43,389 nt of DNA from a virus (IMGVR_UViG_3300036859_000219:1-43389), one strand, 5' to 3'. Positions 11,155 through 42,654 are shown, counted from the stretch's first letter. Notes: generated by a model not told the origin, from the sequence alone. Translations and numbers: made by a program.

Positions 11155-11454
11155 TTATCCCTGCCCCGCGAGAAAGTTGTTGATGCGCGTCATCTGCGCG
11201 ATCAACTGGTTGGATGCGTCCGACGCCATGTTGTTGGTCAGCGTCGTCACGTCGCTCGACGCGAGCGCGCCGGTGGTCGGCGAGGTTGCCGCACCGGCGA
11301 TGATCTGGCCGCCGGTGGTGTTGAAGAATGCCAGCGTCTGTGCGAGGCCGGCGCCGCCCACGCCGCCTTGCAGCGGCGAGAGACCGGCGGCCATCTGTCC
11401 GACACCGGACGGCAGGACGTCGATCCAGAATTGATAGCGAAGACGGAACGCCAT
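11155..11454 (-). CDS. Small protein directly after the major capsid gene (99 aa)
   Basis: ATG 11454 is preceded by GAGGAG at 8 nt and starts MAFRLRYQFWIDVLPSG; the longer frame to 11604 is a shadow of the capsid gene. It contains glycine-rich and Thr/Ala-rich stretches (GLSPLQGGVGGAGLAQTLAF) and ends in a helix (SNQLIAQMTRINNFLAGQG). The place right behind the capsid gene suggests a capsid-associated protein; unproven. Confidence 0.7.
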   Translation of the reverse strand: MAFRLRYQFWIDVLPSGVGQMAAGLSPLQGGVGGAGLAQTLAFFNTTGGQIIAGAATSPTTGALASSDVTTLTNNMASDASNQLIAQMTRINNFLAGQG

Positions 11455-11470: not shown

Positions 11471-12823
11471 TCAGCCGAACGTGGTGTTGAACGCCGACGT
11501 GCTTTCGATCCGCATCGCAAACTGCTGATTGAGCCAGATCGACCCGTAGTAGGTTTTCCAGCCAACCACCCGGAGCTGATTGAGCGGGTCGGACTTGTCG
11601 GCATCCCTCAAGTACGTGAACTGCGTGTTCTTCAGCACGACCTGCCCGTAGGCGCCGCGCCCGAAGATGAAGTTCGGATAGACCGTGACGCCGGTGGCCG
11701 GCGCCGCCGGCGGGATCTGCTGCACGCCGACGCCGGTGATCACGATGGTCTGGCCGCCCGCGAGCTGCGTGGCCTGGCCGGCAAGCGGCCCAACCGATGG
11801 GCCGGACCCGCTGAGCCCCAGATTGACCGGGTTGGCCGCCGAGCCCTGGCCAATGTAGACGCTCCAGGTGAAGCCGGTCGGGGTCGACGGGATCGCAACC
11901 GAGATCGATCCGGTCGGGCCGGTCACGGCGATGTCGTTCGAGAGCTGATAGATACGGCTTTCGTACTGGTTCTGCGTGTCCGACGCCGTGAGCTGGATCG
12001 TATAGGTCGCGGTCGCCAGCGAGCCGATCGCACCCGCCGTGCCCTGTACCGCCGCGACGCCGGTGAAGCTCGGCACCATGTTCGAGAAGCAGAACCGGAT
12101 GCCGTTCCACTCGCCAAGCTCGAAGTTGTAAAGCCGGTTGATGTCGGAATAGGACCATGCCGTCTGGATGGTCTGGTTCTGCCGCAGGTCGGCCGCAACG
12201 AGCGGATGAATGACCGACGTGTAGTGCGGCATGGAGCGCGGATTGCTCGACGCCTTGGCGCCGCCGGCATCGGCCTCCAGCCGCGTGTCGGTCATCTCGT
12301 CGCCCATGTAGCGCGGCGCACCCAGGGTGTGCAGCATCGCATAGGCGCGGTTGAGTTCCGTGATATTCATCACGTCGCCGGCCACCAGCGAGGCGCGCGC
12401 GCCGCGGCTGTTGACGTAATTGATCTGCGTGCCGGCCATCAGCGCATTGAAGGTGTTGCGCTCCAGCGTCTCCGCGACCTGCAGGCCGACCAGCTCGATC
12501 GCCTTCTTGAACAGCGGGTGCTTGATGGTCAGCTCGGCGACGTCAGTGATCGTGACCTTGTCGCCCCACTGCTGCGCCGTCGCCGTGACCTGCTGAATGG
12601 TCATGTTCTGACCGACCGGCGGCACGCCCTCGGCCAGCGTCGCGTACGGCAGCGGCACGCGGTTGTAGCGGGTGGCGGTGTAGGAGGTGCCGCGGCCCTC
12701 GGGGAGCGAGAGCGGATCGCCGAACTGATAGACGACCAGCTGGCGGCGGGCGAGAGGCAGCGTCTTGTCTGCGATATAGGCTTCAATATCGGCAGCAAAT
12801 GAACCGGCGGTGTTCGTCGCCAT
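11471..12823 (-). CDS. Major capsid protein, N4-gp56 family (450 aa)
   Basis: The N-terminal 130 residues show the N4-gp56 family pattern: LARRQLVVYQFGDPLSLPEG, RYNRVPLPYATLAEGVPP, then QQWGDKVTITDVAELTIKHP. Later SMPHYTSVIHPLVAADLR is also typical. Between about residues 255 and 400 there is an extra beta-rich segment (AIPSTPTGFTWSVYIGQGSA) that looks like an inserted Ig-like or surface domain. The C-terminus returns to the fold (GQVVLKNTQFTYLRDADKSD). GGAG lies 8 nt before ATG 12823. The scaffold gene is immediately upstream, as usual for capsid modules. Confidence 0.92.
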   Translation of the reverse strand: MATNTAGSFAADIEAYIADKTLPLARRQLVVYQFGDPLSLPEGRGTSYTATRYNRVPLPYATLAEGVPPVGQNMTIQQVTATAQQWGDKVTITDVAELTIKHPLFKKAIELVGLQVAETLERNTFNALMAGTQINYVNSRGARASLVAGDVMNITELNRAYAMLHTLGAPRYMGDEMTDTRLEADAGGAKASSNPRSMPHYTSVIHPLVAADLRQNQTIQTAWSYSDINRLYNFELGEWNGIRFCFSNMVPSFTGVAAVQGTAGAIGSLATATYTIQLTASDTQNQYESRIYQLSNDIAVTGPTGSISVAIPSTPTGFTWSVYIGQGSAANPVNLGLSGSGPSVGPLAGQATQLAGGQTIVITGVGVQQIPPAAPATGVTVYPNFIFGRGAYGQVVLKNTQFTYLRDADKSDPLNQLRVVGWKTYYGSIWLNQQFAMRIESTSAFNTTFG

Positions 12824-12861: not shown

Positions 12862-13665
12862 TCAGATGGGCACGTTCTCCAACCGCTGCTCGAGAGACGC
12901 CGCGCCACGGCGATTGCCGCCCACGTCGCCCCGCGAGTTCGTCGGCCTGGTCGTCTGCCGGCGAATGCGGTCTTGCGCACCACTCGCACGCTTGTCCGCG
13001 GTCGAACGCTGCTTGTCGACGAGCGCGCGGCCGAGGACGTAGAACAGGACAGCTTGGCGGGGGACGTTGCCGCCCTCGCTGCGAATCTTGGTCAGCTCGC
13101 GATCGACTTCCGCCGCATACTTGCGGGCGAGCGGATTCGCCGCGCACTCCTGCTGGAATGCCTGCGTGTCGATGCGATCCATGGTCTGGAAATTCTGCAC
13201 GGCGCTGGCCTGCTGGAACCGCTCCAGCGCCTTGTTCACCTTGTAGTCGGCGCGCTGGTCCGGCGTCATCGCCTCGAGCAACCGCGCTTCTTCCTGCGGA
13301 TCGACCTGCTGCGCGGGCCGCTGGCGCGCTTCGAAGTCGCGCACCCGCCGTTCGTTGTCCTCGGCGCGGCGGTCGGCCTCCTGGGCGCGGCGCTCGGCTT
13401 CCTGCGCCCGCGCGCGCAATGACCGGATGGTGTCGCCGGCCCGGCCGCGCGGCTCGGCGTCCGGCTCGCGCTGTTGCGCTCCGCCGGCCGCTGCCGCACC
13501 CTCTTCCGGCTCGCCGGCAGGGTCGGTTACGTCTTCGTCGTCTTCGGGATCGGTCTCGGTATCGACCGGATCCAGCTCGAGATCATCGGTCGGGCTCGCG
13601 CCGCCCTCGTTCTCGGGCGCGCGGCAGATGTCAGAAAGCAAGCGCAAGCGTAGTGAGCGCAGCAT
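12862..13665 (-). CDS. Capsid scaffolding protein (267 aa)
   Basis: A highly acidic N-terminal half (PTDDLELDPVDTETDPEDDE) precedes a long charged coiled coil (RAQEAERRAQEADRRAEDNE, about residues 80-115) and a basic C-terminus (RIRRQTTRPTNSRGDVGGNR). This acidic/coiled-coil/basic layout and its place directly before the major capsid gene identify a scaffolding protein that nucleates procapsid assembly. AGGAG stands 6 nt before ATG 13665. It is the first gene after late promoter A. Confidence 0.85.
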   Translation of the reverse strand: MLRSLRLRLLSDICRAPENEGGASPTDDLELDPVDTETDPEDDEDVTDPAGEPEEGAAAAGGAQQREPDAEPRGRAGDTIRSLRARAQEAERRAQEADRRAEDNERRVRDFEARQRPAQQVDPQEEARLLEAMTPDQRADYKVNKALERFQQASAVQNFQTMDRIDTQAFQQECAANPLARKYAAEVDRELTKIRSEGGNVPRQAVLFYVLGRALVDKQRSTADKRASGAQDRIRRQTTRPTNSRGDVGGNRRGAASLEQRLENVPI

Positions 13666-13755: not shown

Positions 13756-13800
13756 TAACAAAGTTGCGCGATGTATCACGCTTTTGAAATTATCTGTCAA
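13756..13800 (-). promoter_or_regulatory. Late promoter/operator element A (drives scaffold-capsid unit)
   Basis: On the minus strand TTGACA (13800-13795), a 17-bp spacer, GATACATC (from 13777) and then GCAACTTTGTTAC, one mismatch from the palindrome GCAA-N5-TTGC. The same order and spacing recur at four other places at the head of late units. It lies 90 bp upstream of the scaffold start, and its -35 overlaps the 3' end of the glycosyltransferase gene. Confidence 0.82.
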
Positions 13801-15428
13801 TGGCTCGCGGATTGACACGCCGCAACCCACAAGCGGCGGTAGGCGCGCTCCAGATGGGCGACATAGAGGCCCGCGTCGCCGATCACGGTCTTTTTCATCC
13901 GCTCACGCATTCCCGCGCGCAATTCGGCGAGCTGTACCTTGTTGGCCAGCGCCACCGCCTTGAGCACGTAATCGTCGCGGTCGCGCGCTACAAAGCCGGG
14001 CAGCCCCAGCGTGGTCATGACCGATGCGCCGACGCGGCCGGAGGGCCGATCGCCGGGCAGGGTGAGCACCGGAACGCCCATCCACAGCGCCTCGAGCGTC
14101 GAGACGCCGCCGTTGGTCGGCCAGGGGTCGAGCCCGATATCGATCCGGCCATGATCGGCGAGGTGCGGATAGTGGCCGTTCTGCACCAATGTTTCGACGC
14201 GGTCGGCAGGCAATCCCAGGAGATCGCGCGCCCGTTGACGGTGCTCCTCCTGCCCGAAGGTCTTGTCCTTGATCACCATCTTGGCCGATGGGATCGCCTG
14301 CATGACATCGCACCAGACTGCGGCCACCTCCGCCGTCACCTTGGACCAGCGGCCGAGGTAGCCGAACGTGATATGACCGTTCTTGCGCGCCGGCAGCGGT
14401 GCCACCGCAGGCGCCTCGGGAGCGCGATAGTGGAACACGCACGGCAGATGCGCCGACGCGGGGTCGAGCGCCGCATCAAGGATGGTGTGCGGAATCTCCG
14501 GGATGCCAACGCCATTGAGATAACCCCAAGCGTGCAACTGGATAGGTGCCGGCCGCATGGTGAACAGCGGCAAGCGGTTGCCGGCGGTGTAGCCGGACAG
14601 ATCGACCAGAATATCGATCTTGTCGTCGCGGATACGCTGCGCCGCCACTTCGTCCGTTAGGCCGATGATGCGGGTCCAATGATCGACTGATTCGCGGAAC
14701 CGCTCGGTTGCAGGATCCTCGCGCATCGTGGTCGAATAGCAGAACACCTCGAATTTCCGGCGATCGTGGCCGAACAGCACGTTTGCGAAGGCAAACGCGA
14801 CGCTGTGCAAGCGGAAGTCGCCGGACACATAGCCGACGCGAATCCGGCGATCGGGATCGGGGTCGGTGATGGCCGCCGGCTCGGCCTTGATCGCGTGCGC
14901 GGCATGCCAGCGCGCCTTGACCGCCGCGCTCTCCTCGCGCGTCGTGCGCGGGTCCATGTCCCTGGTGTAGACGAGGCTCGCGTGCGCCGCGGCATTCTTG
15001 GGGTCGAGCGCGATCGTCTTCTCGTAGCACTCGTAGGCTTCATCGAAACGGCTGAGCTCGCGATAGATGCCGGCCAGATTGTGCCAGATGACGCCGATCG
15101 CCGGCTCTATCGCCAACGCGTGGCGATAGAGCTTGATCGCATCCTCGTAGCGGCCGAGCTCCTCGGCGACACAGCCGAGATTCGACGCCGCCCGCGAGAA
15201 ATTGGGCTGCACCTCCATGGCGCGCCGATAGGCAATGGCGGCCTCGCCGGTGCGTCCGGTGGTCTGGAGCAGGATGCCGAGATTGTTGTGGGCCTCGGCG
15301 TAGGCGCCCGCCGGAACCAGCGAGATCGCGCGCCGGTAGGACGACTCGGCATGCTGGAACATGCCCTTCTGATACAGAGCAAGTCCGAGATTGTTGGCTT
15401 CGATCGCCGGATGAACGGCCGCGGTCAC
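13797..15428 (-). CDS. TPR-containing O-GlcNAc-transferase-like glycosyltransferase (GT41/SPINDLY type)
   Basis: The first 150 residues are about four tetratricopeptide repeats (NNLGLALYQKGMFQHAESSY; NNLGILLQTTGRTGEAAIAY; SNLGCVAEELGRYEDAIKLY; HNLAGIYRELSRFDEAYECY). The C-terminal about 350 residues match the GT41 catalytic region: RVGYVSGDFRLHSVAFAF, DILVDLSGYTAGNRLPLF, RPAPIQLHAWGYLNGVGIPE, ITFGYLGRWSKV and GLDPWPTNGGVSTLEALWMG, ending with GDRPSGRVGAS. These parallel the UDP-GlcNAc-binding blocks of eukaryotic OGT. The start is uncertain: GTG 15428 (4 nt after the upstream stop) is preferred to TTG 15440. It closes a three-gene late unit behind promoter B, next to a Ser/Thr-rich virion protein that is a plausible acceptor. 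No transmembrane part is seen. The family is sure; the sugar and acceptor are not. Confidence 0.93.
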   Translation of the reverse strand: MTAAVHPAIEANNLGLALYQKGMFQHAESSYRRAISLVPAGAYAEAHNNLGILLQTTGRTGEAAIAYRRAMEVQPNFSRAASNLGCVAEELGRYEDAIKLYRHALAIEPAIGVIWHNLAGIYRELSRFDEAYECYEKTIALDPKNAAAHASLVYTRDMDPRTTREESAAVKARWHAAHAIKAEPAAITDPDPDRRIRVGYVSGDFRLHSVAFAFANVLFGHDRRKFEVFCYSTTMREDPATERFRESVDHWTRIIGLTDEVAAQRIRDDKIDILVDLSGYTAGNRLPLFTMRPAPIQLHAWGYLNGVGIPEIPHTILDAALDPASAHLPCVFHYRAPEAPAVAPLPARKNGHITFGYLGRWSKVTAEVAAVWCDVMQAIPSAKMVIKDKTFGQEEHRQRARDLLGLPADRVETLVQNGHYPHLADHGRIDIGLDPWPTNGGVSTLEALWMGVPVLTLPGDRPSGRVGASVMTTLGLPGFVARDRDDYVLKAVALANKVQLAELRAGMRERMKKTVIGDAGLYVAHLERAYRRLWVAACQSASH

Positions 15429-15429
15429 G

Positions 15430-15648
15430 TCACGCCGCAAGCTTTACGGGGTCGGGCAGCGACGCCGCTGCCTCGGCCACCTGCTCCTGCAGCTGCGCCT
15501 GCTCGGCGGCGTGCTCCTGCCGCGCAACCTGTTGGGCGATCTCGTTGAGATGATTTGCAACATCGTTGTAGATGCCGCGCTTGAGGTGCTCGGCAATCTG
15601 TTGCACTGCGGCGAGTGAAAGCTTGAGGTCGTAGCTCGGAAGCTGCAT
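15430..15648 (-). CDS. Small helical protein upstream of the glycosyltransferase (72 aa)
   Basis: MQLPSYDLKLSLAAVQQIAE begins a protein that is helical throughout, with a Gln/Ala/Glu-rich coiled-coil section (ARQEHAAEQAQLQEQVAEAA). AAGGA stands about 6 nt upstream of ATG 15648. Its stop is 1-4 nt from the glycosyltransferase start, so the two are translationally linked. No family is recognised; a partner or chaperone of the glycosyltransferase is one idea. Confidence 0.7.
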   Translation of the reverse strand: MQLPSYDLKLSLAAVQQIAEHLKRGIYNDVANHLNEIAQQVARQEHAAEQAQLQEQVAEAAASLPDPVKLAA

Positions 15649-15660
15649 CGCTGATCCTTG

Positions 15661-16278
15661 TCAAAATACGGGGATGTAGCCGACACGGCCGGTCGAATCG
15701 ATGAAGTTGAGCCAGCGCTGGATCGACGTCGATGCGCCGGTGGGCGCCGAGGTGGCGGTGAAGGTCGCGGCGACGGTGCCGTTGGCTGTGACCGGCCCGG
15801 TCGATCCGAACTTGATCGTGCCGGTGCCCTTCGGGGTCAGCAAAATGTTGAGATGCGAGCCAGAGCCGAAGGCCGACAGCTGCGGATCGGAGCCCGACGC
15901 CGCGCCGGACACCGCAAGGCCGTTGACGCTGGTCGAGTTGCGCGCGACTTGCAGCGCGGCACCAGCCGCGTTGGTGACAATGCCGCCGAGCCCAACGACG
16001 CCGGCCGGCGCATTCCCGCCGAGGATCAGGTCGACGGAGGTTCCGGCGGATGGCCCGCCAACCGTGATGACGGCGGGCGATCCGGTGGCGCCGCCGGCCA
16101 GAGAAACGAGATTGACCTGAGACGACCCGGCAGGCAGGAAGACTGCTCCGGAGAGCGAGCCCGCGCCGGCCGGCGATAGCAGATTGGCGATGGACGAGCC
16201 GAAGGTGTTGAGCGTGCCGATGATCTGGGACGCCTCGGCGAATGCCGGCGTAGACGAAACGAGAGGAATCGCGACCAT
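15661..16278 (-). CDS. Ser/Thr/Gly-rich virion (fibre- or decoration-type) protein (205 aa)
   Basis: GGAGG lies 7 nt before ATG 16278, which is preferred to the in-frame ATG at 16308 because that would sit in the promoter B palindrome. The protein is Ala/Gly/Ser/Thr-rich and beta-repetitive (GSGSHLNILLTPKGTGTIKF, a stretch common in phage fibre or head-decoration proteins) and ends RWLNFIDSTGRVGYIPVF. It is the first gene of the three-gene unit that ends with the glycosyltransferase, so it is the most likely acceptor if that enzyme acts on virion proteins. Confidence 0.7.
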   Translation of the reverse strand: MVAIPLVSSTPAFAEASQIIGTLNTFGSSIANLLSPAGAGSLSGAVFLPAGSSQVNLVSLAGGATGSPAVITVGGPSAGTSVDLILGGNAPAGVVGLGGIVTNAAGAALQVARNSTSVNGLAVSGAASGSDPQLSAFGSGSHLNILLTPKGTGTIKFGSTGPVTANGTVAATFTATSAPTGASTSIQRWLNFIDSTGRVGYIPVF

Positions 16279-16307: not shown

Positions 16308-16354
16308 CGCAACAAAGTTGCGGGATACATCGCGCAGGCGAAAGATTATGTCAA
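16308..16354 (-). promoter_or_regulatory. Late promoter/operator element B (drives the glycosyltransferase unit)
   Basis: On the minus strand TTGACA (16354-16349), 17-bp spacer, GATGTATC, then the perfect palindrome CGCAACTTTGTTGCG (16322-16308). The first gene starts 30 bp further on. It differs from the other copies only in GATGTA for GATACA. Confidence 0.82.
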
Positions 16355-16359
16355 TGGTC

Positions 16360-17298
16360 CTAGGGCACCCACGGCCCTGGTTGGTATTGCCCGCCGCGTA
16401 TCGTCAGGACCTTGGTGCCGACGAAAGGCCCGCTGATCGACAAGCTCGCGCCATAAACGACCGAGCCGGCATCGATCACGAAAAACCCTTGCGTGAACGT
16501 CGGGTTATTCAAGATAGTGATCGGGATCGTCGGCGAGCCGCTGTCGCTGTTGCCCTGCACCGTGCCGGTTGCCACCTGCATGAAGCTTCCGCCGCTTCCG
16601 GACACCGTGATTGCGCCAGTAAACAGGACCGACGACCCCCAGGCGGCGCCGATGACCAGAAAACTCTGCGGGTAACCGCAATTGCCAAACCACACATTGC
16701 CGATCTCAAGATGCGAGTTGGCAAAAACGTCGATGCAGTCTTGGTTCACGCCGCTAGTGTCGCAGGTGATGCCCTCGACCTTGAGCGCCGCCTCGGACAT
16801 CGAAATGCAGGGCCGCGAGCCGAACGAGGCCGGAAAGAAGAACGCGCCGTTCACGTTCGCCGGGTCACCGCGCAGCGTATAGGGCAGATATTTGCCGATC
16901 GGCAGCGTCTGCGGCGGCGCGCCCCATTTCAGCGGGGCGACGGTGCCGCATTGCCCCAGCAATCGCCCGGAGATCAGCAGGCCCGGATAGTACCATTGTG
17001 AGCCGACATTGGCGACGCCGAGCTGAATCGTCGGCTTCCACTTGCATTGGAAATCATAGAGCGCGGCCAGCGTGTCGTGTGCCTTCTGCGGCGTCGCGAA
17101 CGGCGCCGCCTGCGTGCCGTCGCCGGTGGCGTCGCTGCCGCAAGTCGTCACCGCCACATTCGGCGTTCCCGGCCAATAGCCGTTGGCGCAACTCGCCGGT
17201 GGGGCAACGTACATGGTGACGTCGGCGGTCGGCACGATGCGTTGGGCAAGCGCCGAAGACGCCAAGAACACCAAAAATGCTGCCAGAAATGCCCGCAT
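16360..17298 (-). CDS. Secreted-type tailspike/beta-helix-like protein (312 aa)
   Basis: The N-terminus MRAFLAAFLVFLASSALAQ is a textbook signal peptide with an Ala-x-Ala cleavage site. The body is rich in Gly, Val, Ser and Asn with the rhythm of a right-handed beta-helix (ALKVEGITCDTSGVNQDCID, then NSHLEIGNVWFGNCGYPQSF). Several cysteines occur in the first 230 residues, fitting an exported protein. GGAGG is 5 nt upstream of the second of two consecutive ATGs, so 17298 is chosen. It is coupled to the tail fibre gene by TGATG. It may be a tailspike or an exported surface protein; the signal peptide is unusual for a virion part. Confidence 0.72.
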   Translation of the reverse strand: MRAFLAAFLVFLASSALAQRIVPTADVTMYVAPPASCANGYWPGTPNVAVTTCGSDATGDGTQAAPFATPQKAHDTLAALYDFQCKWKPTIQLGVANVGSQWYYPGLLISGRLLGQCGTVAPLKWGAPPQTLPIGKYLPYTLRGDPANVNGAFFFPASFGSRPCISMSEAALKVEGITCDTSGVNQDCIDVFANSHLEIGNVWFGNCGYPQSFLVIGAAWGSSVLFTGAITVSGSGGSFMQVATGTVQGNSDSGSPTIPITILNNPTFTQGFFVIDAGSVVYGASLSISGPFVGTKVLTIRGGQYQPGPWVP

Positions 17299-18518
17299 CA
17301 TCTCCTCCGACGTGCAAACACTGTCCCGTAAGTGGACCCTGACCCCGCTGAAAAGGTTGCATTCGCCAAGAGAAAGACCGTTGTCGTTGTACTCGTGATG
17401 ACGCGCGTGGCCCCGGTAGTGACGAATTGCGCGCCAGCCCCTGCCCCAAAAGATGCGGCAATCAGCGTAAATCCCGGCAATCCAAGCGTCGGCATGGTCG
17501 CAGAGCTGCTGCCGACCGCTGCCTGGAGGATTGTCATTGCAAACGACGCGGTTGTTGTGAGCGAAAGCAGGCCTTCAACATCCCAATCACCCGCCGTCAA
17601 GCTCATCGAGGCGGCGTTCGAGGTCAATCCCGTCGTGAGCGCTATGGCCCCGGCGACCGTCGTTGTCACCGACGAGTATTCACCCATGTTACCGGAGCTG
17701 GCGGCAACGCCTGTCGTGACTCCCGGAATTTGACCGGCATTGACCCACGACGATGCGACCGGATTGAGACCGTTGGTCGCCAATATGAATCCCGCTGTGC
17801 CCGTGGATGCCGGCAGAAGAACGGTGAACGATGAACCGGACGGATTCGCGCCCAGCGTCGCGGCAGAGGTCGCATTTGAACCTGCCAACGTCAACGATCC
17901 TGGCGTCGTCCCCGGAACGCCAAGCGTCGGACTCGCGGTGAACGCCGATCCGGTCCCGGCAACGCCGGCAAGAACCGTGCCTGATGCGCCAGATGGGTTG
18001 GTCGCGATTGTGGTCCACGCCGTGTTGCTGGCGCCGTCCGTGGTCAAAGCCTGGCCAGATGCCCCGATTGATGGGGGAAACCGCAGCGTCCATGACGCGC
18101 CGGAGGCGTTGGCCGCAAGCGTAACGGTGGAGGTCGCATTGGAGCCGGCAAGCCCGAGCGTGCCGGGCGTGGTGCCGGGATTGCCGAGAACGGGGGCGGT
18201 GACCCATGACGCCGCGGTACCGGCGGCCGGTTGCAACACGCTGCCGGTGCCGCCGAGCGCCAGCCACGACGGCGCGGTCTGCCCGGCCTGCAACAGCGAT
18301 CCGCGCGAGCCGAGCACCAGCACCACCGGATCAGTGGACGCTGCCGGATAATAGAACATGCTGCCGGTCGACGCGCTGGGCGTCAGCACGAACACAGCCG
18401 AGTCGATCAGCTCGTTGAGAAAATTGCGCGTCCCGGTCGGGGTGATGAGGCCGGTCGTGTTGTCCGTGAAAGTCGCCGCAACGTCCGACGACGCGGTGGA
18501 TTTGCTGACGATCGTCAT
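17298..18518 (-). CDS. Tail fibre-like protein with an internal duplication (406 aa)
   Basis: A Ser/Thr/Ala/Gly-rich fibre protein. It contains two adjacent copies of an about 65-residue unit beginning LGNPGTTPGTLGLAGSNATS (about residue 110) and LGVPGTTPGSLTLAGSNATS (about residue 198), each ending in a TTDG/ATNG turn. The C-terminal 130 residues form a separate beta-rich domain ending STYGTVFARRRR. There is no signal peptide. It stands second after the portal gene, in the unit driven by promoter C, and probably builds a tail fibre shaft and tip. Confidence 0.75.
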   Translation of the reverse strand: MTIVSKSTASSDVAATFTDNTTGLITPTGTRNFLNELIDSAVFVLTPSASTGSMFYYPAASTDPVVLVLGSRGSLLQAGQTAPSWLALGGTGSVLQPAAGTAASWVTAPVLGNPGTTPGTLGLAGSNATSTVTLAANASGASWTLRFPPSIGASGQALTTDGASNTAWTTIATNPSGASGTVLAGVAGTGSAFTASPTLGVPGTTPGSLTLAGSNATSAATLGANPSGSSFTVLLPASTGTAGFILATNGLNPVASSWVNAGQIPGVTTGVAASSGNMGEYSSVTTTVAGAIALTTGLTSNAASMSLTAGDWDVEGLLSLTTTASFAMTILQAAVGSSSATMPTLGLPGFTLIAASFGAGAGAQFVTTGATRVITSTTTTVFLLANATFSAGSGSTYGTVFARRRR

Positions 18519-18834: not shown

Positions 18835-21063
18835 TTACCTCCGTGGTGCCGCAGCGGGATCGCGCATCTGATCGCGGTGAATGGCGCCGGGCGGCATCTG
18901 GCCATTGCGCTGCGCCCCGGCCTGTGCGCCCTGCCGCGGCGTGCCGGCAACACCGGGACCACCCATCCCCGGAACGCCTTGCCCCGGTGCCGCGCCGGGA
19001 GCTTGCTGCTGCTGCATCGCTTGCTGCTGCGTCTTCTGCGACATCTGCATGACGTGCTTCATCACGTGCACGCGGATCACGCCGGACGGGTCGCCCATCT
19101 GCATCGCCTGCTGGTGCGCCTGCAAATGCTCGGCGTCGTTGTCGAGCACGTGCACCGGCAAATCGATGGCCTGCTCGAGGTAGGAGTTCTCCAAGCGCGG
19201 GTCCATCGCCAGCTGCGAGCGCATGTCCTTGAGAATCTTCGGCCCGATGCGCGGCCCCATCACGTTCGAGGTGATCTGCACGAGTGCCGGCGTCAAGTCG
19301 AGCTGATAGCCGGGATATGCCTGCGGGCCGAGCCCGCGCAGCACGTTCATCCAGGAAATCTGCTGCTGCATCTGCTGCGCGCTGCGGGCGGCCTCGACGC
19401 CGTACCAGCGAAATTCGAACCGCCGATGCATCTGCGTCGGCGGAATCTGCTCCATGTTCATGTCGGACCCGACCTCGCCGAACTGCGGCACGGTCAGCGC
19501 GCGGTCGCGGTACTGGTGGTCGAGCTCGAGCCAGCGCTGCAACATCGGGGTCAGCACCTCGCCCTCGAGCGTGGTCACCGCGTCGGCGGTGGTGAGAACG
19601 TCGACCTGCTGCTCGTTGGCGATCTCGGCCTGGTTCATGCGCCGCTTGCCGGACGACGCCTGCTGCGGGATGGCGGCCGGCGACACGCTCAAGGTCTGGT
19701 TCACCTCGGTCTTGGCCGCGGTGACGATCTCGAATGCGTCCTTCCACAGCTGCGGGAAGTTGGCGAAGCTCGTGTCTTTCGGCGAGGTTTCCCAGATTGC
19801 GGCGACGCTGAGCACCATCGATCCGACGCGCGGATTCTTGGCCGGATCGGTCATGATGATCGGCAGCAGCGCATAGGCCGCCGAGTCCATGCCTTCGTTG
19901 ACCGCATCGTTGGCGGCATATTGCAGATCGGCGACGGCGCGGATTTTCGAGATGCCCTTGAACGCGCCCTGCTCCTTGTCGACCGGCGCCGAGATCAGCG
20001 GGCACTTGTCGGACCAGTTCGGGTTGCGCTTGACGGACAAAACCTTGTCCTCGCCGCCGAAGTAGAGGCGGCACAAGCGGCGCTCTTTCTTGATCTTGAT
20101 CACGCTCCAGGTCTCGTAGACCTGGGCGAACTTGCTGCCGCCGGTGATCTTGATGCCGGCGGCATCGACCATCTTCGCCTGCTTGTCGGGCTGGTTGGAC
20201 TTGCCGGACGAGCGCAAGGTCGAGATCAGCGCGCGCCCGCGCTTCTTCTCGATCTCGCCGTCCGCGATCATCTGCTTGATCTTGGATTCCGACCAGCGCC
20301 GGATGATGGTAGCCGAGCCGCCCTGCGAGAGCGCGTCATCGACGCTGTCGGCGGTCGCCGGGAGCACGCTCACGTCGCTGTCGGCCAGCACCTCCACATG
20401 CGGAAAACCGTGCACGATCTCGGTTTCCTCGATGTCGTCCTCGCCCTCGTCCTCGTCGAGCTCGACGCCATCGAGATCCGGCGGGCGCGGCTTGCGCCAG
20501 GCGACGTGGTGCTTGTTCTCGATCCAGGTCACATAGAGGTTGTACTGGCCCTCGATGTCGCCGTTCTTCACCAGCGCCGGCATGACGCGGGTGCGCAGTT
20601 TGGACTTGCGGATGTAGTGCTCGAGCAGCGACGTGATGGCGCTCGGCGGGGCGTCCGAGGACAGCACCTCGACGTGGCGGCCGGACTGCGGAAAAACCTG
20701 ATTGACAAAGCGGGTTTTTCGGGCGTCGACCGCGTTGCGCACGATCGGCACGAAAATCTTGGAATTTCCCGAGTAGAATTGCCGCGGCCCGAGTTTGCAG
20801 TGGTAGACGTCCCACCAGTCCATCATCTCGTCGGAACGGCTGATCTGGTCCTCGAAACCCTTCTGCACGGTCGAATAGAGCTTGAGCGCGGCATCCTCGA
20901 CATATTTGAAGGTGACGAGCTCCTCGTCGCGCTCCAGTTCGGGCGAGTGTCGGTCGAGCGGCTCGCGGACGACCGCCGACGCCCCCTCCTCGGCCTCGTC
21001 AGCCTCGATCTCGTCGGCATCGGTCAGAGGATCGGCCTTGGCGTCCATTGTCCCGCTCGACAT
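18835..21063 (-). CDS. Portal protein (742 aa)
   Basis: A 742-residue protein with the acidic start DADEIEADEAEEGASAVV, then a portal-type core: KGFEDQISRSDEMMDWWDVY, SGNSKIFVPIVRNAVDARKT, YNLYVTWIENKHHVAWRKPR, and later NQAEIANEQQVDVLTTADAV and the C-terminal Gln-rich barrel/tail (QMSQKTQQQAMQQQQAPGAA). Length and order match portals of P22/N4-like podoviruses. Start ATG 21063 follows GGCGAG; ATG 21048 and an ATG at 21093 are alternatives, but the latter lies in the promoter C palindrome. TerL is encoded just upstream. The portal forms the dodecameric ring through which DNA is packaged and ejected. Confidence 0.88.
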   Translation of the reverse strand: MSSGTMDAKADPLTDADEIEADEAEEGASAVVREPLDRHSPELERDEELVTFKYVEDAALKLYSTVQKGFEDQISRSDEMMDWWDVYHCKLGPRQFYSGNSKIFVPIVRNAVDARKTRFVNQVFPQSGRHVEVLSSDAPPSAITSLLEHYIRKSKLRTRVMPALVKNGDIEGQYNLYVTWIENKHHVAWRKPRPPDLDGVELDEDEGEDDIEETEIVHGFPHVEVLADSDVSVLPATADSVDDALSQGGSATIIRRWSESKIKQMIADGEIEKKRGRALISTLRSSGKSNQPDKQAKMVDAAGIKITGGSKFAQVYETWSVIKIKKERRLCRLYFGGEDKVLSVKRNPNWSDKCPLISAPVDKEQGAFKGISKIRAVADLQYAANDAVNEGMDSAAYALLPIIMTDPAKNPRVGSMVLSVAAIWETSPKDTSFANFPQLWKDAFEIVTAAKTEVNQTLSVSPAAIPQQASSGKRRMNQAEIANEQQVDVLTTADAVTTLEGEVLTPMLQRWLELDHQYRDRALTVPQFGEVGSDMNMEQIPPTQMHRRFEFRWYGVEAARSAQQMQQQISWMNVLRGLGPQAYPGYQLDLTPALVQITSNVMGPRIGPKILKDMRSQLAMDPRLENSYLEQAIDLPVHVLDNDAEHLQAHQQAMQMGDPSGVIRVHVMKHVMQMSQKTQQQAMQQQQAPGAAPGQGVPGMGGPGVAGTPRQGAQAGAQRNGQMPPGAIHRDQMRDPAAAPRR

Positions 21064-21085
21064 ACACTCGCCGCCGTCGCGCGCT

Positions 21086-21136
21086 CCGCGCAATAATGTT
21101 GCGCGGATGTATCGGGTTTTTGTAATTTTCTGTCAA
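21086..21136 (-). promoter_or_regulatory. Late promoter/operator element C (drives portal-fibre unit)
   Basis: On the minus strand TTGACA (21136-21131), 17-bp spacer, GATACATC, then a perfect inverted repeat with 8-bp arms, CCGCGCAA-N5-TTGCGCGG (21106-21086). The portal ATG is 23 bp downstream. The -35 abuts the terL stop codon. Confidence 0.85.
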
Positions 21137-23131
21137 TCAGTGTCGGGTCGCCAGCGCCGAGAGATAGCGGCGGCCGGTGTCTGTGTAGGCGTAGTTGCGG
21201 CTGGCGTCGACCTCCTCAACCGCCCCAACCTGGAGCAGCGCGCAGAAGCTCTCGATCCCCTCCATCAGGGTCCGGTGCGGCCCTTCCTTGGCGAGCGGCG
21301 TCAGGGTCCCGTCCTTGGCGACGTCCTGGCAGTAGCCGCCGGCAAATGCTTGCAGGGTGAGCCGAGCCGCGCTCGACACCAGCACGCACGGCAGCCCGTT
21401 CATGTTCCGCCGCATCAGCGCGCGCACCTCCTCGCGGCCGAGACTCTCCTGCGCACCGGTGCGGACCTCGATCGGCACCCGTGCCGCCGCTGCCTTGAGC
21501 CCGAGCGTATCGTACGCCTGGAAGTGCCGGGGCGGGGCAATGACCCGCATGGTGCGCCCGGCCTCGAGCGCGGCGGCCTGCACGATCCCGAGCAGCGCCT
21601 CGCCGGGCCCGCCCTCGCGGGCGAAGTCGGCCAGGAGATGCAGCGAGCCGTCGACCAGCTGCGCCAGCGCGGCAACGGTGTAGCGCGGCTCGGCGTTGAC
21701 GATCAGCCACAGCGGCGCGCGATCGTGGATCCGCATCCCCTCGACGATGAACTGCTGCGCGAAGCCGGGAAAGATCGCCTGCCCCGGCCGCATTCGCAGC
21801 GCGTACGCCAGCGCGTTCGGGAAGTCGATGTTGCCGGTCGGATAGCCCAGGAGCTGCGCCTTGGCCTCGTCCGACACGTTGACGAAGATCACCTCGCCGG
21901 CGCGGAAGAACGGCTGCAAGCCCTCAATGAACTGGAGCTTACCCCGCGGCGGCGGCAGCGGCTCCAGGTTGAGCACCACCCGCCGCCGGGTCATCTCGGC
22001 GCGCAACGGCTGCTTGATCCATTCGTTGAGCCCGGTTTCCTCGATCCCGATCACGGTCGGGGAAAACTCCCGATCGGTGGCAAACACGTCGTTCACCAGC
22101 TGGTCCGGCATCCACAGCTTGGCCTCGCCTGACCAGACCACCAGCCGGGGACCGATCCAGGAAAACACCACCTTGCCGGTGGAGGCGGATTTCTTGTTCA
22201 CGGTGCGCGCCGGATCGTACGCGACGTCGACCCGGTGCCAAGTGCGCACCAGCGCCTCCGTCTTGATGTCCTCGGCGCGGAACGTCTTCACCGCCGGGTC
22301 CTCGGCCTCGCACAGGTATTCGCAGTTGAAATCCGATAAGAGCCCTTGGCGTACGTACTCCATACGCTTCTCGCCGATCCAGGCCAGCGGGTACTTGCCG
22401 GGCCACATCGGCACCCACTTCCCCGGCGGCAGGTCGTCGTGCTCCTCCCCGGAGTTGGCCTGGTACATGATCGGATAGCGCTGGTGATACCAGCCGGAAT
22501 CCTTCGCCACCCGCACGATCACCGCATCGCTGTCGAGCCGGTTGCCGATGAGCCGGATTTGCGCGTGCTTGGCAAACGCCGGCAGCGCGGTGCGGTAGAG
22601 CCAGCGCAGCCGATCGCGCCGTGCCTCAGGGGTCCGCACCGTCTCCTCGTCCTCGAGGTCGTCCATCAGCCCGAAGTCCGGCCGCTTCTCGTGGTGCTTC
22701 GACCCGCGCAGCGACTGGCCGGAACCGAACGCCCGGATCGAAACCCCGTTCTTGAGCACCAGATGGCTTTCACCCCAGGTCGGGCCGCGTAGGTCGCCGA
22801 ACAGGTGCTCGAGCATCTCGTTGGTCTCGAGCTCGAACTTGATCGCCTGCAACCGCTCGACCGCGCGCTCATAGCTGGCGCCGATCACGATGCCGTTGCC
22901 GAACTTCTGGAACGCGGCCCGGATAACGAAAACCTCCTCCATGATCGTCGACTTCGCCGCGTCGCGGAACGCCTCGGTCACGATCCGCGGCCGGTCGGAG
23001 TGCCAGGCGTCGATGATCTCGAAATGAAACGGCGGCGTCGCCTGCGGATGCCGGTGCTCGAACAGCGCCTGATGCGCCAGCCGGGGATTGGTCCCGAGCC
23101 GCAGCAGCAGCGCCTCTTTGTCGGATGCCAT
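21137..23131 (-). CDS. terL: Terminase large subunit (664 aa)
   Basis: The ATPase part has a deviant Walker A, TEAFRDAAKST (residues 52-62), of the (G/A)xxKS/T kind used by many podoviral terminases, and a Walker B, FGLMDDLED (153-161). The coupling motif region is RLIGNRLDSD. The RNase H-like nuclease part has an acidic residue in VDVAYDPA (Asp302), IEETGLNEW (about 364) and a late Asp in TGNIDFPNALAYAL. The start ATG shares its A with the stop of a 44-aa membrane protein (TGATG). The enzyme cuts the concatemer and drives DNA into the procapsid via the portal, encoded next. No small subunit is recognisable by sequence. Confidence 0.9.
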   Translation of the reverse strand: MASDKEALLLRLGTNPRLAHQALFEHRHPQATPPFHFEIIDAWHSDRPRIVTEAFRDAAKSTIMEEVFVIRAAFQKFGNGIVIGASYERAVERLQAIKFELETNEMLEHLFGDLRGPTWGESHLVLKNGVSIRAFGSGQSLRGSKHHEKRPDFGLMDDLEDEETVRTPEARRDRLRWLYRTALPAFAKHAQIRLIGNRLDSDAVIVRVAKDSGWYHQRYPIMYQANSGEEHDDLPPGKWVPMWPGKYPLAWIGEKRMEYVRQGLLSDFNCEYLCEAEDPAVKTFRAEDIKTEALVRTWHRVDVAYDPARTVNKKSASTGKVVFSWIGPRLVVWSGEAKLWMPDQLVNDVFATDREFSPTVIGIEETGLNEWIKQPLRAEMTRRRVVLNLEPLPPPRGKLQFIEGLQPFFRAGEVIFVNVSDEAKAQLLGYPTGNIDFPNALAYALRMRPGQAIFPGFAQQFIVEGMRIHDRAPLWLIVNAEPRYTVAALAQLVDGSLHLLADFAREGGPGEALLGIVQAAALEAGRTMRVIAPPRHFQAYDTLGLKAAAARVPIEVRTGAQESLGREEVRALMRRNMNGLPCVLVSSAARLTLQAFAGGYCQDVAKDGTLTPLAKEGPHRTLMEGIESFCALLQVGAVEEVDASRNYAYTDTGRRYLSALATRH

Positions 23132-26023: not shown

Positions 26024-26566
26024 TCAAGCCGCCGTCCTCGCCTGATAGTTCTTGCGCGCTTGGCGTACGCGCCGCGCATGCTCTTCGTTCGAATAGCGTA
26101 TGGTTCTGCCGCGTGCGCGTTCGGTATGCGTACGGCAGTACGGTACGCCTGCGTACACATCGGCCTCGGGCGCGCCGCAGTAGAAGAATCCCGGATCGCG
26201 CGGCTCGCCGATCGGCCAGCGGCAGTGGCAGTTCTCCAGTTCCAGCAGCGTCTTGCGCTGCTTGATCGGGGTAGCGAGATCATCCACATCGTCGGTCAGC
26301 GCCAGCGGCTCGGCCTTAGGCTCGACGGCGAGGAAGCGCTCGGCTGGCCGTCGCTTGCGACGGCGCCTCACCTTCTGGGCCTTGACCTCCGGATTCCGCC
26401 TCGGCCCCTTCAGCCCGAGGCCGCTCGACAGCCCGAGCCGGAACAACTTTCCCAGCACCATCGACCTGGTGACGTCGCGGCCGAGCTCGGCCGCGATCAT
26501 GGTTGCTGACAGCCCGTCGCCTTGCAGCTTCACGATTTTCCCGATCAGCTCGTCGTCCCAGGTCAT
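26024..26566 (-). CDS. gcrA: GcrA-family cell-cycle transcription regulator (180 aa)
   Basis: The N-terminus TWDDELIGKIVKLQGDGLSA followed by ATMIAAELG-RDVTRSMVLGK and LFRLGLS is the GcrA helix-turn-helix. The C-terminal RNA-polymerase-binding part is also present: KTLLELENCHCRWPIGEP, FFYCGAPEA and VPYCRTHTERA, including the Cys/His cluster. In Caulobacter GcrA binds methylated GANTC promoters together with sigma70. The linker is very basic (KVRRRRKRRPAERF). Start ATG overlaps the upstream stop by 4 nt. Phage copies are known in alphaproteobacterial phages and could redirect host or phage transcription; the target genes are not visible from sequence. Confidence 0.9.
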   Translation of the reverse strand: MTWDDELIGKIVKLQGDGLSATMIAAELGRDVTRSMVLGKLFRLGLSSGLGLKGPRRNPEVKAQKVRRRRKRRPAERFLAVEPKAEPLALTDDVDDLATPIKQRKTLLELENCHCRWPIGEPRDPGFFYCGAPEADVYAGVPYCRTHTERARGRTIRYSNEEHARRVRQARKNYQARTAA

Positions 26567-31996: not shown

Positions 31997-32190
31997 CAAC
32001 CGACGAGATAGTCGCTGCGGTGAAGGAAAAATTCCCCTGTTTCGGAGGGGGCGATGAACGCGTGCGCGACAACCCAATTGCTGCCGCCCTCAAAGACCGT
32101 CCACTCATGTTCGCCATGGGCGTCGATGTTAAGAGCGTCGTCGAATTCGTGATAGACGCGCTCACCCCTCCAGTGCGGAGCGGCGAATGA
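31993..32190 (+). CDS. Small hypothetical protein (65 aa)
   Basis: ATGA overlap with the DUF551 gene. MTTDEIVAAVKEKFPCFGGG then ALKDRPLMFAMGVDVKSVVE; ends VRSGE, another version of the recurrent linker. No family recognised. Confidence 0.65.
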   Translation: MTTDEIVAAVKEKFPCFGGGDERVRDNPIAAALKDRPLMFAMGVDVKSVVEFVIDALTPPVRSGE

Positions 32191-33092
32191 CCGAGCCCAC
32201 CCGCCCCGCACTACGCTGGCACGGCGGCAAGTGGAAGCTTGCGCCATGGATCATCAGCAACTTTCCACCGCACCGGGTCTATGTGGAACCGTTCGGCGGG
32301 GCGGCGTCCGTCCTCATGCGCAAGCCACGGGCCTATGCCGAAATCTACAATGACCTGGACGACTGGGCTGTGAATCTGTTCCGCGTACTGCGAGATGAGG
32401 CCTTATCGGCGAAACTTCACGCGCAGCTTCTATTGACCCCATTCGCTCGCACTGAATTCGAATGCGGCCGGGAATTGGGCGAGGCCTCCAGCGATCCCGT
32501 GGAACTGGCGCGGCGCCTGGTCGTCCGTTCGTTCATGGGGTTTGGATCGAATGCCCACAATGGCCGATCGACCGGCTTCCGAGCCAACAGCAATCGCTCT
32601 GGCACAACGCCGGCCGCCGATTGGGCCAACTACCCGCAAGCCATGTTGGCGCTCGTGGCGCGGCTCCAAGGCGTTGTGATTGAGAACCGAGATGCAACGG
32701 CGGTTATGTGCCAGCATGACGGCCCCGAGACGCTACATTATGTCGATCCGCCCTACATGGCTGAAACCCGTTCGCCGGCGAACAAGTATGATCTGAAATA
32801 CCGGATGTACCGCCACGAACTGGACGACGCCGCCCATGCGCGCCTCCTGGATGCGCTGCAAGAACTATCCGGGATGGTTGTGCTGTCCGGCTATCCGGCG
32901 CCGCTGTACGAGCGCGCGCTGAGCGCCTGGCGGCGTGTTGAAACGGCAGCGCATGCCGATGGCGCGCGCCCGCGTACCGAGGTCCTTTGGATCAATCCGC
33001 AGGCCTGCGCCGCGATCGATGAAGCCCGCTCGCAGGGAACGCTTTTCGCGGCAGGCACACAGACCACCGCTTTGGGGAGCGACGACAAGTGA
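32187..33092 (+). CDS. dam: Dam-family DNA adenine methyltransferase (301 aa)
   Basis: Class D12 N6-adenine methylase motifs are in order: LRWHGGKWKLAPWI (residues 9-22), YVEPFGGAASVL (32-43), NDLDDWAVNLFRVLRD (55-70), and the catalytic DPPY at 187-190 (HYVDPPYMAETR). Length fits Dam. No partner endonuclease is encoded nearby, so it is an orphan methylase. It may protect phage DNA from host restriction or mark it; the recognition sequence cannot be read off. It overlaps the radical SAM gene (GTGA). Confidence 0.92.
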   Translation: MTEPTRPALRWHGGKWKLAPWIISNFPPHRVYVEPFGGAASVLMRKPRAYAEIYNDLDDWAVNLFRVLRDEALSAKLHAQLLLTPFARTEFECGRELGEASSDPVELARRLVVRSFMGFGSNAHNGRSTGFRANSNRSGTTPAADWANYPQAMLALVARLQGVVIENRDATAVMCQHDGPETLHYVDPPYMAETRSPANKYDLKYRMYRHELDDAAHARLLDALQELSGMVVLSGYPAPLYERALSAWRRVETAAHADGARPRTEVLWINPQACAAIDEARSQGTLFAAGTQTTALGSDDK

Positions 33093-34012
33093 GACCGACC
33101 GGGCACTGGGTCAACGGGCTCGCCGAGTGGACGGACGACGATACGGCATATCTGTCGGTCGCGTTCACGTGGCGGCTCAATGACGCCTTTGCCCGCGCGT
33201 GCTGGTATCGCCAAGCCGGTTTTAAGGTCCGCGCTGGCGGCCCCGGCATCTTCACCCGCAAGCACTTCCTGGCCGACGTGGCGGAGATCGGCGGCGACTA
33301 CCCCGACGCGATCGCCCGGCACAATCCGATGGCAACCTTTGCGAGCCGCGGCTGCCCGGTCGGCTGCTGGTTCTGCATCGTGCCGAAGATGGAGGGTCGC
33401 GCCTTCACTCTCCTGCCCGATTTTGTCCCGCGGCCGGTGTTGTGCGACAACAATCTGTCCGGCCTGCCCGGCGACTATCAGGACCACATCGTCGCGCGCT
33501 ATCAAGCGGCCGGCGTGCCGCTCCTCGATGCCAATTCGGGCTTTGAGCCGAAGACATTCGACGATGAGGTGCTGGCACGATGGGCGCCGATCAACAAAGG
33601 ACCATGGCGCTTTGCCTTCGATGAGTGGGGCGAGGTCGGGGACGTTCTCCGCGTCCTTGAGATGCTTAAGGACTACTCCCCGCGGCGAAAGCAGGTCTAC
33701 ACGCTGATCGGCAACGAGCCCTTTGCTGAGTGCATGGCGCGGATCATGTTCGTGATCGAGCACGGCGGCGAGCCCTACGCGCAGCCGTACATGAAGCTCA
33801 ATGCACTAGAGCGCAAGCCGCACGTCCGGTTCGATTGGACGCATCGCGAATTAATGGCTGTGCAGCGATGGGTGAACGGCCGGTTCTGGAAGTTTACCAA
33901 GTTCGACAACTATCGATCGTCGATCAGGACCGGACGCGGCCCAGAGGCACTGCTCGCCGACCTGTTTCCTGACACGCCGCAAACCGCATCTGTACGGAGC
34001 GACAAGCCGTGA
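33089..34012 (+). CDS. Radical SAM protein (307 aa)
   Basis: The CX3CX2C cluster is at Cys89, Cys93 and Cys96 (ASRGCPVGCWFCIVPKMEGR), as in TSRGCP-type radical SAM enzymes that hold a 4Fe-4S cluster and cleave S-adenosylmethionine. Upstream residues (about 20-80: LSVAFTWRLNDAFARACWYR, GFKVRAGGPG) resemble a B12-binding-like or small Rossmann part. The rest (about 100-260) would be the partial TIM barrel. Starts with GTG overlapping the dam stop, so the two are coupled. A role in DNA base modification alongside the methylase is a reasonable guess, not shown. Confidence 0.82.
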   Translation: MRPTGHWVNGLAEWTDDDTAYLSVAFTWRLNDAFARACWYRQAGFKVRAGGPGIFTRKHFLADVAEIGGDYPDAIARHNPMATFASRGCPVGCWFCIVPKMEGRAFTLLPDFVPRPVLCDNNLSGLPGDYQDHIVARYQAAGVPLLDANSGFEPKTFDDEVLARWAPINKGPWRFAFDEWGEVGDVLRVLEMLKDYSPRRKQVYTLIGNEPFAECMARIMFVIEHGGEPYAQPYMKLNALERKPHVRFDWTHRELMAVQRWVNGRFWKFTKFDNYRSSIRTGRGPEALLADLFPDTPQTASVRSDKP

Positions 34013-34685: not shown

Positions 34686-35131
34686 CCGGCGTATTTGTTT
34701 GGCGACCAAGCGGCAACATGCGACGACGCATGTGGAACAAAGTGGCTGGTAGCCTTCACTATCGAGGTTACATCCACATTGAACTTAACGGGCACCACTA
34801 CGCGGCACATCGTCTTGCTTGGCTGTACATGACGGGAGAGTGGCCACCAAATCATATCGACCACATAAACATGAGCAAATCCGACAATCGGTGGTCGAAC
34901 CTTCGAGCCGCGACAAAATCACAAAATCACGCCAATAGAGCGATCTTCCAAAACAATAGATCGGGCTTCAAGTGGGTGCGTTTCGAGCCCCGGAATGGTC
35001 AATGGCAAGCGCGCATCACTCTAAATTACAGGCAGAAGCATCTCGGATATTTTGCCGATCCTGAAACAGCCCACAAAGCATATTGCCGCGCCGCTGAAAA
35101 AACGTTCGGAGAATTTGGGAGGGGAGCATGA
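34613..35131 (+). CDS. HNH endonuclease with AP2 domain, second copy (172 aa)
   Basis: Homologous to 9427-9915 with the same order: LSYEPMTGVFVWRP, the HNH core NHIDHINMSKSDNRWSNLRA (Asp83-His84, Asn96), and a C-terminal AP2-like domain (HLGYFADPETAHKAYCRAAE). It is noticeably AT-richer than its neighbours. GGAGGCGAG precedes ATG 34613. Overlaps both the upstream gene and the integrase start, so it inserted in-line. Confidence 0.92.
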   Translation: MPGTKEGEAITQAELKQYLSYEPMTGVFVWRPSGNMRRRMWNKVAGSLHYRGYIHIELNGHHYAAHRLAWLYMTGEWPPNHIDHINMSKSDNRWSNLRAATKSQNHANRAIFQNNRSGFKWVRFEPRNGQWQARITLNYRQKHLGYFADPETAHKAYCRAAEKTFGEFGRGA

Positions 35132-36303
35132 CGGGCACACCGGGTTTGATCTGGCGGAAGCGTCGCAACGGTGCATCGGTTGCCTACTGGACGGCCCGAC
35201 GCGACCTCGTAAAGGCCGGCTATCGCCCGAAGTCGGTTCGGCTGCACTACTCCCCGGGTGACCCGGCCTTGGCCGCGCGCTGCCGTGCCCTACAGGACGA
35301 GATGCTTGCCTGGTCATCGGCCGGCCGACGATCGCCGAGTGTTTACGATGGCACCTTTGCATCGTTGGTCCGGTTCTACGAGACGCACCCGGATTCGCCC
35401 TACCATGACCTGCGGCCGGCTGCGGCGCGGACCTACAGCAAGACCATGGCCATCCTCATGAAGCACAAGGGCGCCCGCCGCATCGACGCCGTGGACGGCT
35501 CGGACGTGCGCCGCTGGTACAAGGAGCTTGTCGAGGCCAAGTCGAAGGGCTGGGCCTACTACACGATCAACGTTCTCAAGGCGGTCCTGTCCTTCGGGGC
35601 AACCAAGCGGATCGCGGAGTGCCGCATCCTTCGCGCCGAGCTCCGGGAGGCGAAATTCCAGGCCGGCAATCGCCGCAAGGAACGCCTGACCTACCCGCAG
35701 GTCGTGGCCTTTCGCGAAGCCGCTGAGGCGTTGGATCTAGGGTGGATGGGGCTTTGCCTCACGCTCCAATTCTGCGGGCTGCGCCGGCGGGACGTGATCG
35801 GCGAATGGATCAACGACGAACTCGGAACGGACGGCATCCGCCGTGGCAAGCGCATCTGGCGGGACGGTCTGACCTGGGCACACATCGACGCCCAAGGCAT
35901 CCTCCGCAAGCTCATCTCGAAAACCATGTTCACGTCGGAGCTGGTCGCGGTCCACGCGATCGCCGACTATCCCGATGTCGAGGCCGAGCTGGCGAAGATA
36001 CCGCCCGAGCGTCGCGTTGGCCCGATCGTCATCAATACCCGCACGGGCCTGCCGCCGACCGAGGAGCAGTGTCGCCACTACTTTCGGCTGATCGCGCGCA
36101 AGGCCGGCATCCCGGATACGGTGTGGAACATGGATGCACGGGCCGGCGCCAATACCGAAGCCTATGAGGCTGGGGCAACGACCGAGGAAGCCATGGCGCT
36201 GCTCACGCATTCGGAGGCGAGCACGAACCGGATATATCTGCGTGACCTGACCGAGCAGTCGCGACGTGCGGCGGCGAAGCGCGTAGCTTCGCGGAAGGAA
36301 TGA
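35128..36303 (+). CDS. int: Tyrosine recombinase / integrase (391 aa)
   Basis: N-terminal arm-binding type region (GLIWRKRRNGASVAYWTARR), a core-binding helical domain (about 75-165) and a catalytic domain: Arg219/220 in FCGLRRRDVIGEW, Lys265 in LISKTMF, Arg338 in NMDARAGANTEA, His361 in LLTHSEASTNR and the nucleophile Tyr370 (RIYLRD). The first position of HxxR is Met (MDAR), a departure from the canonical motif. It indicates a temperate life style. No tRNA-like attachment core is evident on either side. ATGA overlap with the HNH gene. Confidence 0.88.
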   Translation: MTGTPGLIWRKRRNGASVAYWTARRDLVKAGYRPKSVRLHYSPGDPALAARCRALQDEMLAWSSAGRRSPSVYDGTFASLVRFYETHPDSPYHDLRPAAARTYSKTMAILMKHKGARRIDAVDGSDVRRWYKELVEAKSKGWAYYTINVLKAVLSFGATKRIAECRILRAELREAKFQAGNRRKERLTYPQVVAFREAAEALDLGWMGLCLTLQFCGLRRRDVIGEWINDELGTDGIRRGKRIWRDGLTWAHIDAQGILRKLISKTMFTSELVAVHAIADYPDVEAELAKIPPERRVGPIVINTRTGLPPTEEQCRHYFRLIARKAGIPDTVWNMDARAGANTEAYEAGATTEEAMALLTHSEASTNRIYLRDLTEQSRRAAAKRVASRKE

Positions 36304-42608: not shown

Positions 42609-42654
42609 GCAACAAAGTTGCGGGATGTATCGGTTTTTAGCAATTATCTGTCAA
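42609..42654 (-). promoter_or_regulatory. Late promoter/operator element D (drives the lysis cassette)
   Basis: On the minus strand TTGACA (42654-42649), 17-bp spacer, GATACATC, then the perfect palindrome GCAACTTTGTTGC (42621-42609). The -35 is inside the last codons of the upstream gene. The endolysin start is 42 bp downstream. Confidence 0.87.

Follow-up and report, generated by a model that had tools for sequence, protein, structure and literature searches.

The three-gene unit and its phage genome

We analysed the 43,389-base record of a soil phage, referred to as the window, by which we mean this whole stretch of DNA. On its minus strand, from position 16278 to 13797 and within the cluster of virion genes, a unit of three genes encodes proteins of 205, 72 and 547 aa. 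Both this unit and the assignment of its last gene to a TPR plus GT41 enzyme had been put forward in a preliminary description and were confirmed by our analysis. The 205-aa protein (15661-16278) is rich in Ser, Thr and Gly (S+T 22.9%, G 15.6%), has a fibre- or decoration-like character and is a candidate acceptor. The longest open reading frame for this gene begins with a GTG at 16308 and comprises 215 aa; the ATG at 16278 is the better start, as it has GGAGG upstream and a better promoter spacing. The 72-aa protein (15430-15648) is a helical orphan with Pfam matches only below the cut-off, no PHROG match and no relative in the loci compared. The glycosyltransferase (GT) gene (13797-15440) starts with a TTG, or alternatively with a GTG at 15428, and its start overlaps or abuts the stop of the 72-aa gene at 15430.

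A 45-nt promoter-like element (ATTGACA...GATACATC-CGCAACTTTGTT), in which a perfect TTGACA box is combined with a conserved downstream block, is present in four copies in the window. All copies are on the minus strand, which is each time the strand that encodes the late genes: before the 205-aa gene and thus the unit (16311-16355), 3′ of the GT gene and before the scaffold and major capsid genes (13757-13801), before the portal gene (21093-21137) and before gene 42615-41230 (42611-42655). The pattern gave three matches, compared to none in 100 shuffles. In the related phage L002, an intergenic stretch bearing TTGACA is found at the position matching the copy at 13757-13801. Since two copies flank 16278-13797, the three genes correspond exactly to the interval between them. 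Intrinsic terminators were not detected above the level of shuffled sequences, so that read-through from the portal and fibre genes is possible and 'dedicated' applies only in a relative sense. The proposal that the unit has its own promoter is supported by the promoter-like element in front of it. Judged by its position, the unit would be expressed late.

Family searches of the window detected terminase, portal, fibre, collar-type tail and capsid genes, and the GT gene lies between the portal and fibre genes on one side and the scaffold and capsid genes on the other. On the minus strand we found the terminase large subunit (21137-23131; phrog_38, 5.4e-52), a portal or head-tail adaptor protein (18835-21093; phrog_332, 7e-6), a 406-aa tail fibre with an S+T content of 29.6% that is an alternative acceptor (17298-18518; phrog_11393, 4.7e-12), and a 313-aa protein, possibly a beta-helix, with a signal-peptide-like N-terminus (MMRAFLAAFLVFLASSALAQ) and a weak tail PHROG match (16360-17301). 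Beyond the GT gene, also on the minus strand, follow a probable scaffold protein of 267 aa (12862-13665), which has no family match and is named by its position between the GT and capsid genes, and the 450-aa major capsid protein (11471-12823; phrog_1357 major head protein, 2.2e-34). A scaffold-like gene precedes the capsid gene in most relatives of the window phage. ARAGORN called a tRNA-Ile(gat) at 11271-11361 on the plus strand, antisense to a small late gene 3′ of the capsid gene, which is possibly spurious.

Direct terminal repeats of 127 bp (1-127 and 43263-43389) indicate that the genome is probably complete. The phage is probably temperate, judging from an integrase-like gene (35128-36303; phrog_1, 1.9e-12, with a Pfam integrase match below its cut-off). 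It also encodes the cell-cycle regulator GcrA (26024-26566, minus strand; PF07750, 1.1e-27). GcrA is an alphaproteobacterial regulator, and its gene therefore points to an alphaproteobacterial host. Together with a DNA methyltransferase gene (32187-33092), the gcrA gene suggests an interplay with methylation-based control of the host cell cycle. A radical-SAM-like gene (33089-34012, plus strand; phrog_9298) adjoins the methyltransferase gene.

The phage enzyme shares its fold with SPINDLY

Both domains of the enzyme were found above the Pfam cut-offs: PF13844 (Glyco_transf_41) at 1.3e-39 and TPR_1 at 1.4e-29 with four repeats. In a phmmer search of the PDB, SPINDLY (SPY), the GT41 protein O-fucosyltransferase of Arabidopsis (PDB 7y4i, 8dti), was the best match (about 1e-101 over residues 15-543), followed by the OGTs. 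The TPR region covers residues 15-156 (14973-15398, minus strand), as delimited by the sequence, the Pfam TPR match and the model helices. An Asn is present at TPR position 6 in all four repeats (N17, N53, N87 and N121), forming the asparagine ladder that holds the acceptor backbone in OGT and SPY (PMC9715652). The GT-B catalytic domain covers residues 197-543 (13812-14852, minus strand), and in it we mapped, by SPY numbering, D208, H212, S213, V214, W305, R364, K367, K391, H426, D429, T442, G445, V446 and E450. K367 is the equivalent of the essential Lys (OGT K842, SPY K665) and is invariant in 58 sequences.

An AlphaFold2 model built from 58 homologues reached a mean pLDDT of 95.2 and a pTM of 0.92. 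It superposed on SPY over the full length of TPR and GT-B domains (TMq 0.91, 2.4 Å over 543 residues, Z 47.5) and on TtOGT with a TMq of 0.85, while XcOGT and human OGT superposed less well; the TPR plus GT-B fold and the catalytic Lys are common to all of them. Like SPY, the phage enzyme has no OGT-type insertion domain, and it keeps the catalytic Lys, the guanosine Lys and the equivalents of D491, H495, S496, V497, H728 and E752. In contrast to SPY, it has four instead of 11 TPRs, belongs to a different clade and is encoded in a virion gene cluster. Against that of L002, the GT shows 66% identity and a dN/dS of 0.24, which indicates purifying selection and hence that the gene is kept. From its sequence and model, the phage enzyme looks intact.

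A virus-enriched GT41 clade

A single-protein scan of IMG/VR found no close relatives of the enzyme. With an alignment-based scan we obtained 56 GT41-bearing loci from IMG/VR and, from bacterial genomes, the 80 best. In an IQ-TREE tree, the clade of the window enzyme comprises 39 of the 72 rows on one side of a branch (SH-aLRT 99); a FastTree tree gave the clade a support of 0.943. After the addition of 30 alphaproteobacterial GT41 loci the FastTree support was 0.997, and the clade then held, in addition to the window, 34 loci from viruses and 13 from bacteria. Its signature residues are W, R and G at the positions of SPY 592, 662 and 747 (W305, R364 and G445 in the window). GT41 genes were present in 127 of 289 alphaproteobacterial genomes, and six of the 30 best-scoring loci belong to the clade (judged from these loci, about six of the 289 genomes). 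A virus-specific clade was considered, which is weakened by the bacterial members; given these, we call the clade virus-enriched, and as viral and bacterial collections are sampled differently, this denotes enrichment in viruses and nothing beyond.

Neither the window enzyme nor any of three clade members that we tested had a full-length match in 50,697 GenBank phage records. BFVD returned only TPR or generic GT-B matches and no full-length GT41 model, an absence that is no proof. Within the family of the window phage, the GT is present in two of 89 phages (the window and L002, at matching positions), PF13844 being found in one of the 88 records of relatives, and the gene is thus accessory. 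The region between portal and scaffold genes is hypervariable in this family. In the relatives this region carries endolysins, which are lysis genes, five OMP beta-barrels and four Wzy_C O-antigen-ligase-like genes, apparently for host-surface modification.

The sugar donor

SPY uses GDP-fucose as donor. UDP-GlcNAc, which had been named in the preliminary description as the donor of GT41 enzymes, can thus not be taken as general for this family, and the corresponding residues of OGT are not found here. Three residues separate SPY (K689, A731, Y744) from OGT (L866, R904, C917), according to Kumar et al., and those of OGT select uridine and GlcNAc (PMC10027727). At these positions the window enzyme has K391, D429 and T442, and the L002 enzyme is identical. 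Hence the OGT/SEC-like pattern is absent; of the SPY pattern, the guanosine-contacting Lys is present, but not the Ala and Tyr. In addition, the pocket differs from that of SPY at I592 (W305), N662 (R364), T747 (G445) and T748 (V446). With such a K/D/T pattern and a remodelled pocket, neither UDP-GlcNAc nor GDP-fucose can safely be assumed. The residues suggest that the donor is probably one other than UDP-GlcNAc, with the guanosine-type Lys kept and the sugar pocket remodelled.

Two readings concern the donor only. The enzyme might be a canonical O-GlcNAc transferase using UDP-GlcNAc, which would be compatible with a role on virion proteins. Family and fold are shared with OGT, and a prokaryotic GT41 group has mixed donor residues (PMC10027727); however, all three discriminating OGT residues are replaced and the nearest fold is that of SPY, then TtOGT, rather than human OGT, so that we regard this as improbable. 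Only slightly better are the prospects of a SPINDLY-type O-fucosyltransferase using GDP-fucose. K391 corresponds to SPY K689, and three Azospirillum homologues (39-40% identity) with the full K/A/Y pattern are encoded a few genes from a GDP-L-fucose synthase gene. Against this, Y744, T747 and T748, important for fucose transfer in SPY, are all replaced, and the window enzyme belongs to a clade other than that of SPY and the Azospirillum proteins.

Near the GT41 genes of L106, L114, L122 and the bacterial clade member L177, we observed genes of nucleotide-sugar type, a possible pathway that hints at the donor. PfkB kinase, cytidylyltransferase-like and transketolase-like genes are common to L177 and the phages L106 and L122, the last two of these genes also to L114, and radical-SAM genes occur near the GT41 gene in the phages. 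No counterpart of this kinase, nucleotidyltransferase, transketolase-like and radical-SAM cassette was seen in the window, and the radical-SAM-like gene of the window had no blast match to the genes neighbouring the clade GTs.

Clade members adjoin capsid, fibre and flagellin genes

The suggestion that the enzyme has a virion-related role gains far better support from the gene order across the clade than from the window alone. Counting the window and L002, 19 records contain a recognised capsid gene; the GT gene precedes it by less than 1 kb in 13 of them, and both genes are on one strand in all 19, a set that includes close relatives and represents about six or seven separate lineages. As many contigs are short, real weight against chance comes only from the long contigs (window, L106, L136, L137 and L146), at 1-5% each. 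The capsid genes near the clade GTs belong to three PHROG capsid families. For instance, the order in L137 is portal (3e-118), head maturation protease (1.4e-33), GT and major capsid protein (8e-55), and in six more records the GT lies just upstream of a capsid gene of the L137-type family. As a control, 18 virus records with GT41 genes outside the clade were inspected; two of them hold that capsid family, in both cases many kb from the GT. The GT of L103-L106 precedes a capsid gene of a different family, phrog_3437, and in L110-L122 the GT comes after long fibre-like or beta-helix genes. In the bacterial L177, two flagellin genes and fliD lie directly downstream of the GT, and additional bacterial GT41 genes are also located near flagellin genes.

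Candidate acceptors

Being Ser/Thr-rich and part of the same unit as the GT, the 205-aa protein is a reasonable candidate for the acceptor. Its residues 106-159 correspond to a segment that virus contigs contain at 22 loci, and its N-terminal motif is common to proteins of relatives, some of which are encoded right 3′ of the capsid gene. In L009, L012, L013, L016, L024, L027 and L064, we noticed small proteins in which the motif PSxPxYSEPSQIIGTLN comes after a signal-peptide-like N-terminus; the genes of L012, L013 and L024 are directly 3′ of the capsid gene, and the 205-aa protein carries the motif without a leader. No match to the 205-aa protein was found in GenBank phages. The capsid proteins of the two GT-bearing phages (window and L002) have not gained Ser/Thr, and within the clade the proteins encoded beside the GT were not significantly enriched in these residues (P=0.14 and 0.78). 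The acceptor would most likely be the 205-aa protein, the fibre or the capsid protein.

A possible role in virion glycosylation

Virion glycosylation, as proposed in the preliminary description, is partly supported by these data. With a probability of roughly 0.6, we propose that a late, cytosolic, TPR-guided enzyme O-glycosylates a virion protein with one sugar. The enzyme would be a soluble TPR-GT41 protein O-glycosyltransferase, predicted to be active and made late alongside the virion proteins. Its TPR groove with the asparagine ladder may hold a phage structural protein by an unstructured stretch that contains Ser/Thr, and the GT-B domain would move a single sugar from a host nucleotide-sugar onto this acceptor. 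Catalysis would involve K367 and be substrate-assisted, like that of OGT and SPINDLY, and the sugar would be transferred before or during particle assembly. Glycosylation of DNA was considered and set aside given the protein-type TPR-GT41 fold and the late position.

As the main alternative, the enzyme might modify a host flagellin, pilin or outer-membrane protein, acting as a conversion gene that alters adsorption or excludes superinfection. The probably temperate nature of the phage and the flagellin genes beside the GT of L177 fit such a role, and the lysis, OMP-barrel and O-antigen-ligase-like genes in the portal-scaffold region of relatives make host-surface targets possible. Still, the GT lies among virion genes and not beside the integrase-like gene, copies of the promoter-like element stand before the capsid and portal genes as well, and clade GTs repeatedly adjoin capsid or fibre genes; we thus consider modification of a host protein unlikely. 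That the gene is a captured bacterial one without a role in the phage, carried as transient cargo, would be in line with its accessory nature and its hypervariable surroundings. This is hard to reconcile with the purifying selection, the conserved position in L002 at 66% identity, the conserved active site and the recurrence of the clade in unrelated phages, and appears very improbable.

Modification of a virion protein, our preferred reading, would resemble the way in which FlmG glycosylates flagellin, with the virion as the target. In Caulobacter crescentus, the TPR domain of FlmG binds flagellin and its C-terminal GT modifies flagellin in the cytoplasm (PMC7591256). The two enzymes are alike in their described architecture (soluble, about 600 aa, N-terminal TPR and C-terminal GT-B), FlmG acts on a self-assembling surface protein, and a bacterial relative in the phage enzyme's clade neighbours flagellin genes. 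They differ in that FlmG uses pseudaminic acid as donor and that its substrate is flagellin instead of the proposed phage protein. The mycobacteriophages Che8 and Rita likewise have phage-encoded glycosyltransferases that are thought to modify the capsid protein (cited in PMC11256854).

A wider proposal, which we hold tentatively and at slightly less than even odds, is that this virus-enriched GT41 subfamily O-glycosylates virion proteins (capsid, decoration or fibre) in the cytoplasm during assembly, having been placed independently beside capsid genes in unrelated phage families. The donor would be neither UDP-GlcNAc nor GDP-fucose, and the ancestry, in some phages including the kinase and nucleotidyltransferase sugar cassette, would be shared with bacterial flagellin glycosylation islands. 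Eukaryotic signalling and bacterial flagella are the best-known settings of intracellular protein O-glycosylation with a single sugar, and to our knowledge very few cases of virion protein glycosylation in phages have been described. GT41 genes beside capsid and fibre genes in unrelated phages suggest a little-known route to sugar-coated phage particles. If true, this type of glycosylation would be a recurrent virion trait across unrelated uncultured phages, and the clade would be a source of compact protein O-glycosyltransferases and allow a direct test of how TPRs choose their acceptors.

Finally, in L136 (14224-16061) and L137 (10645-12464), a GT2-type gene (PF00535, 2.6e-8 in L137) and another glycosyltransferase-like gene were observed 3′ of the capsid gene, where they perhaps produce a longer glycan.
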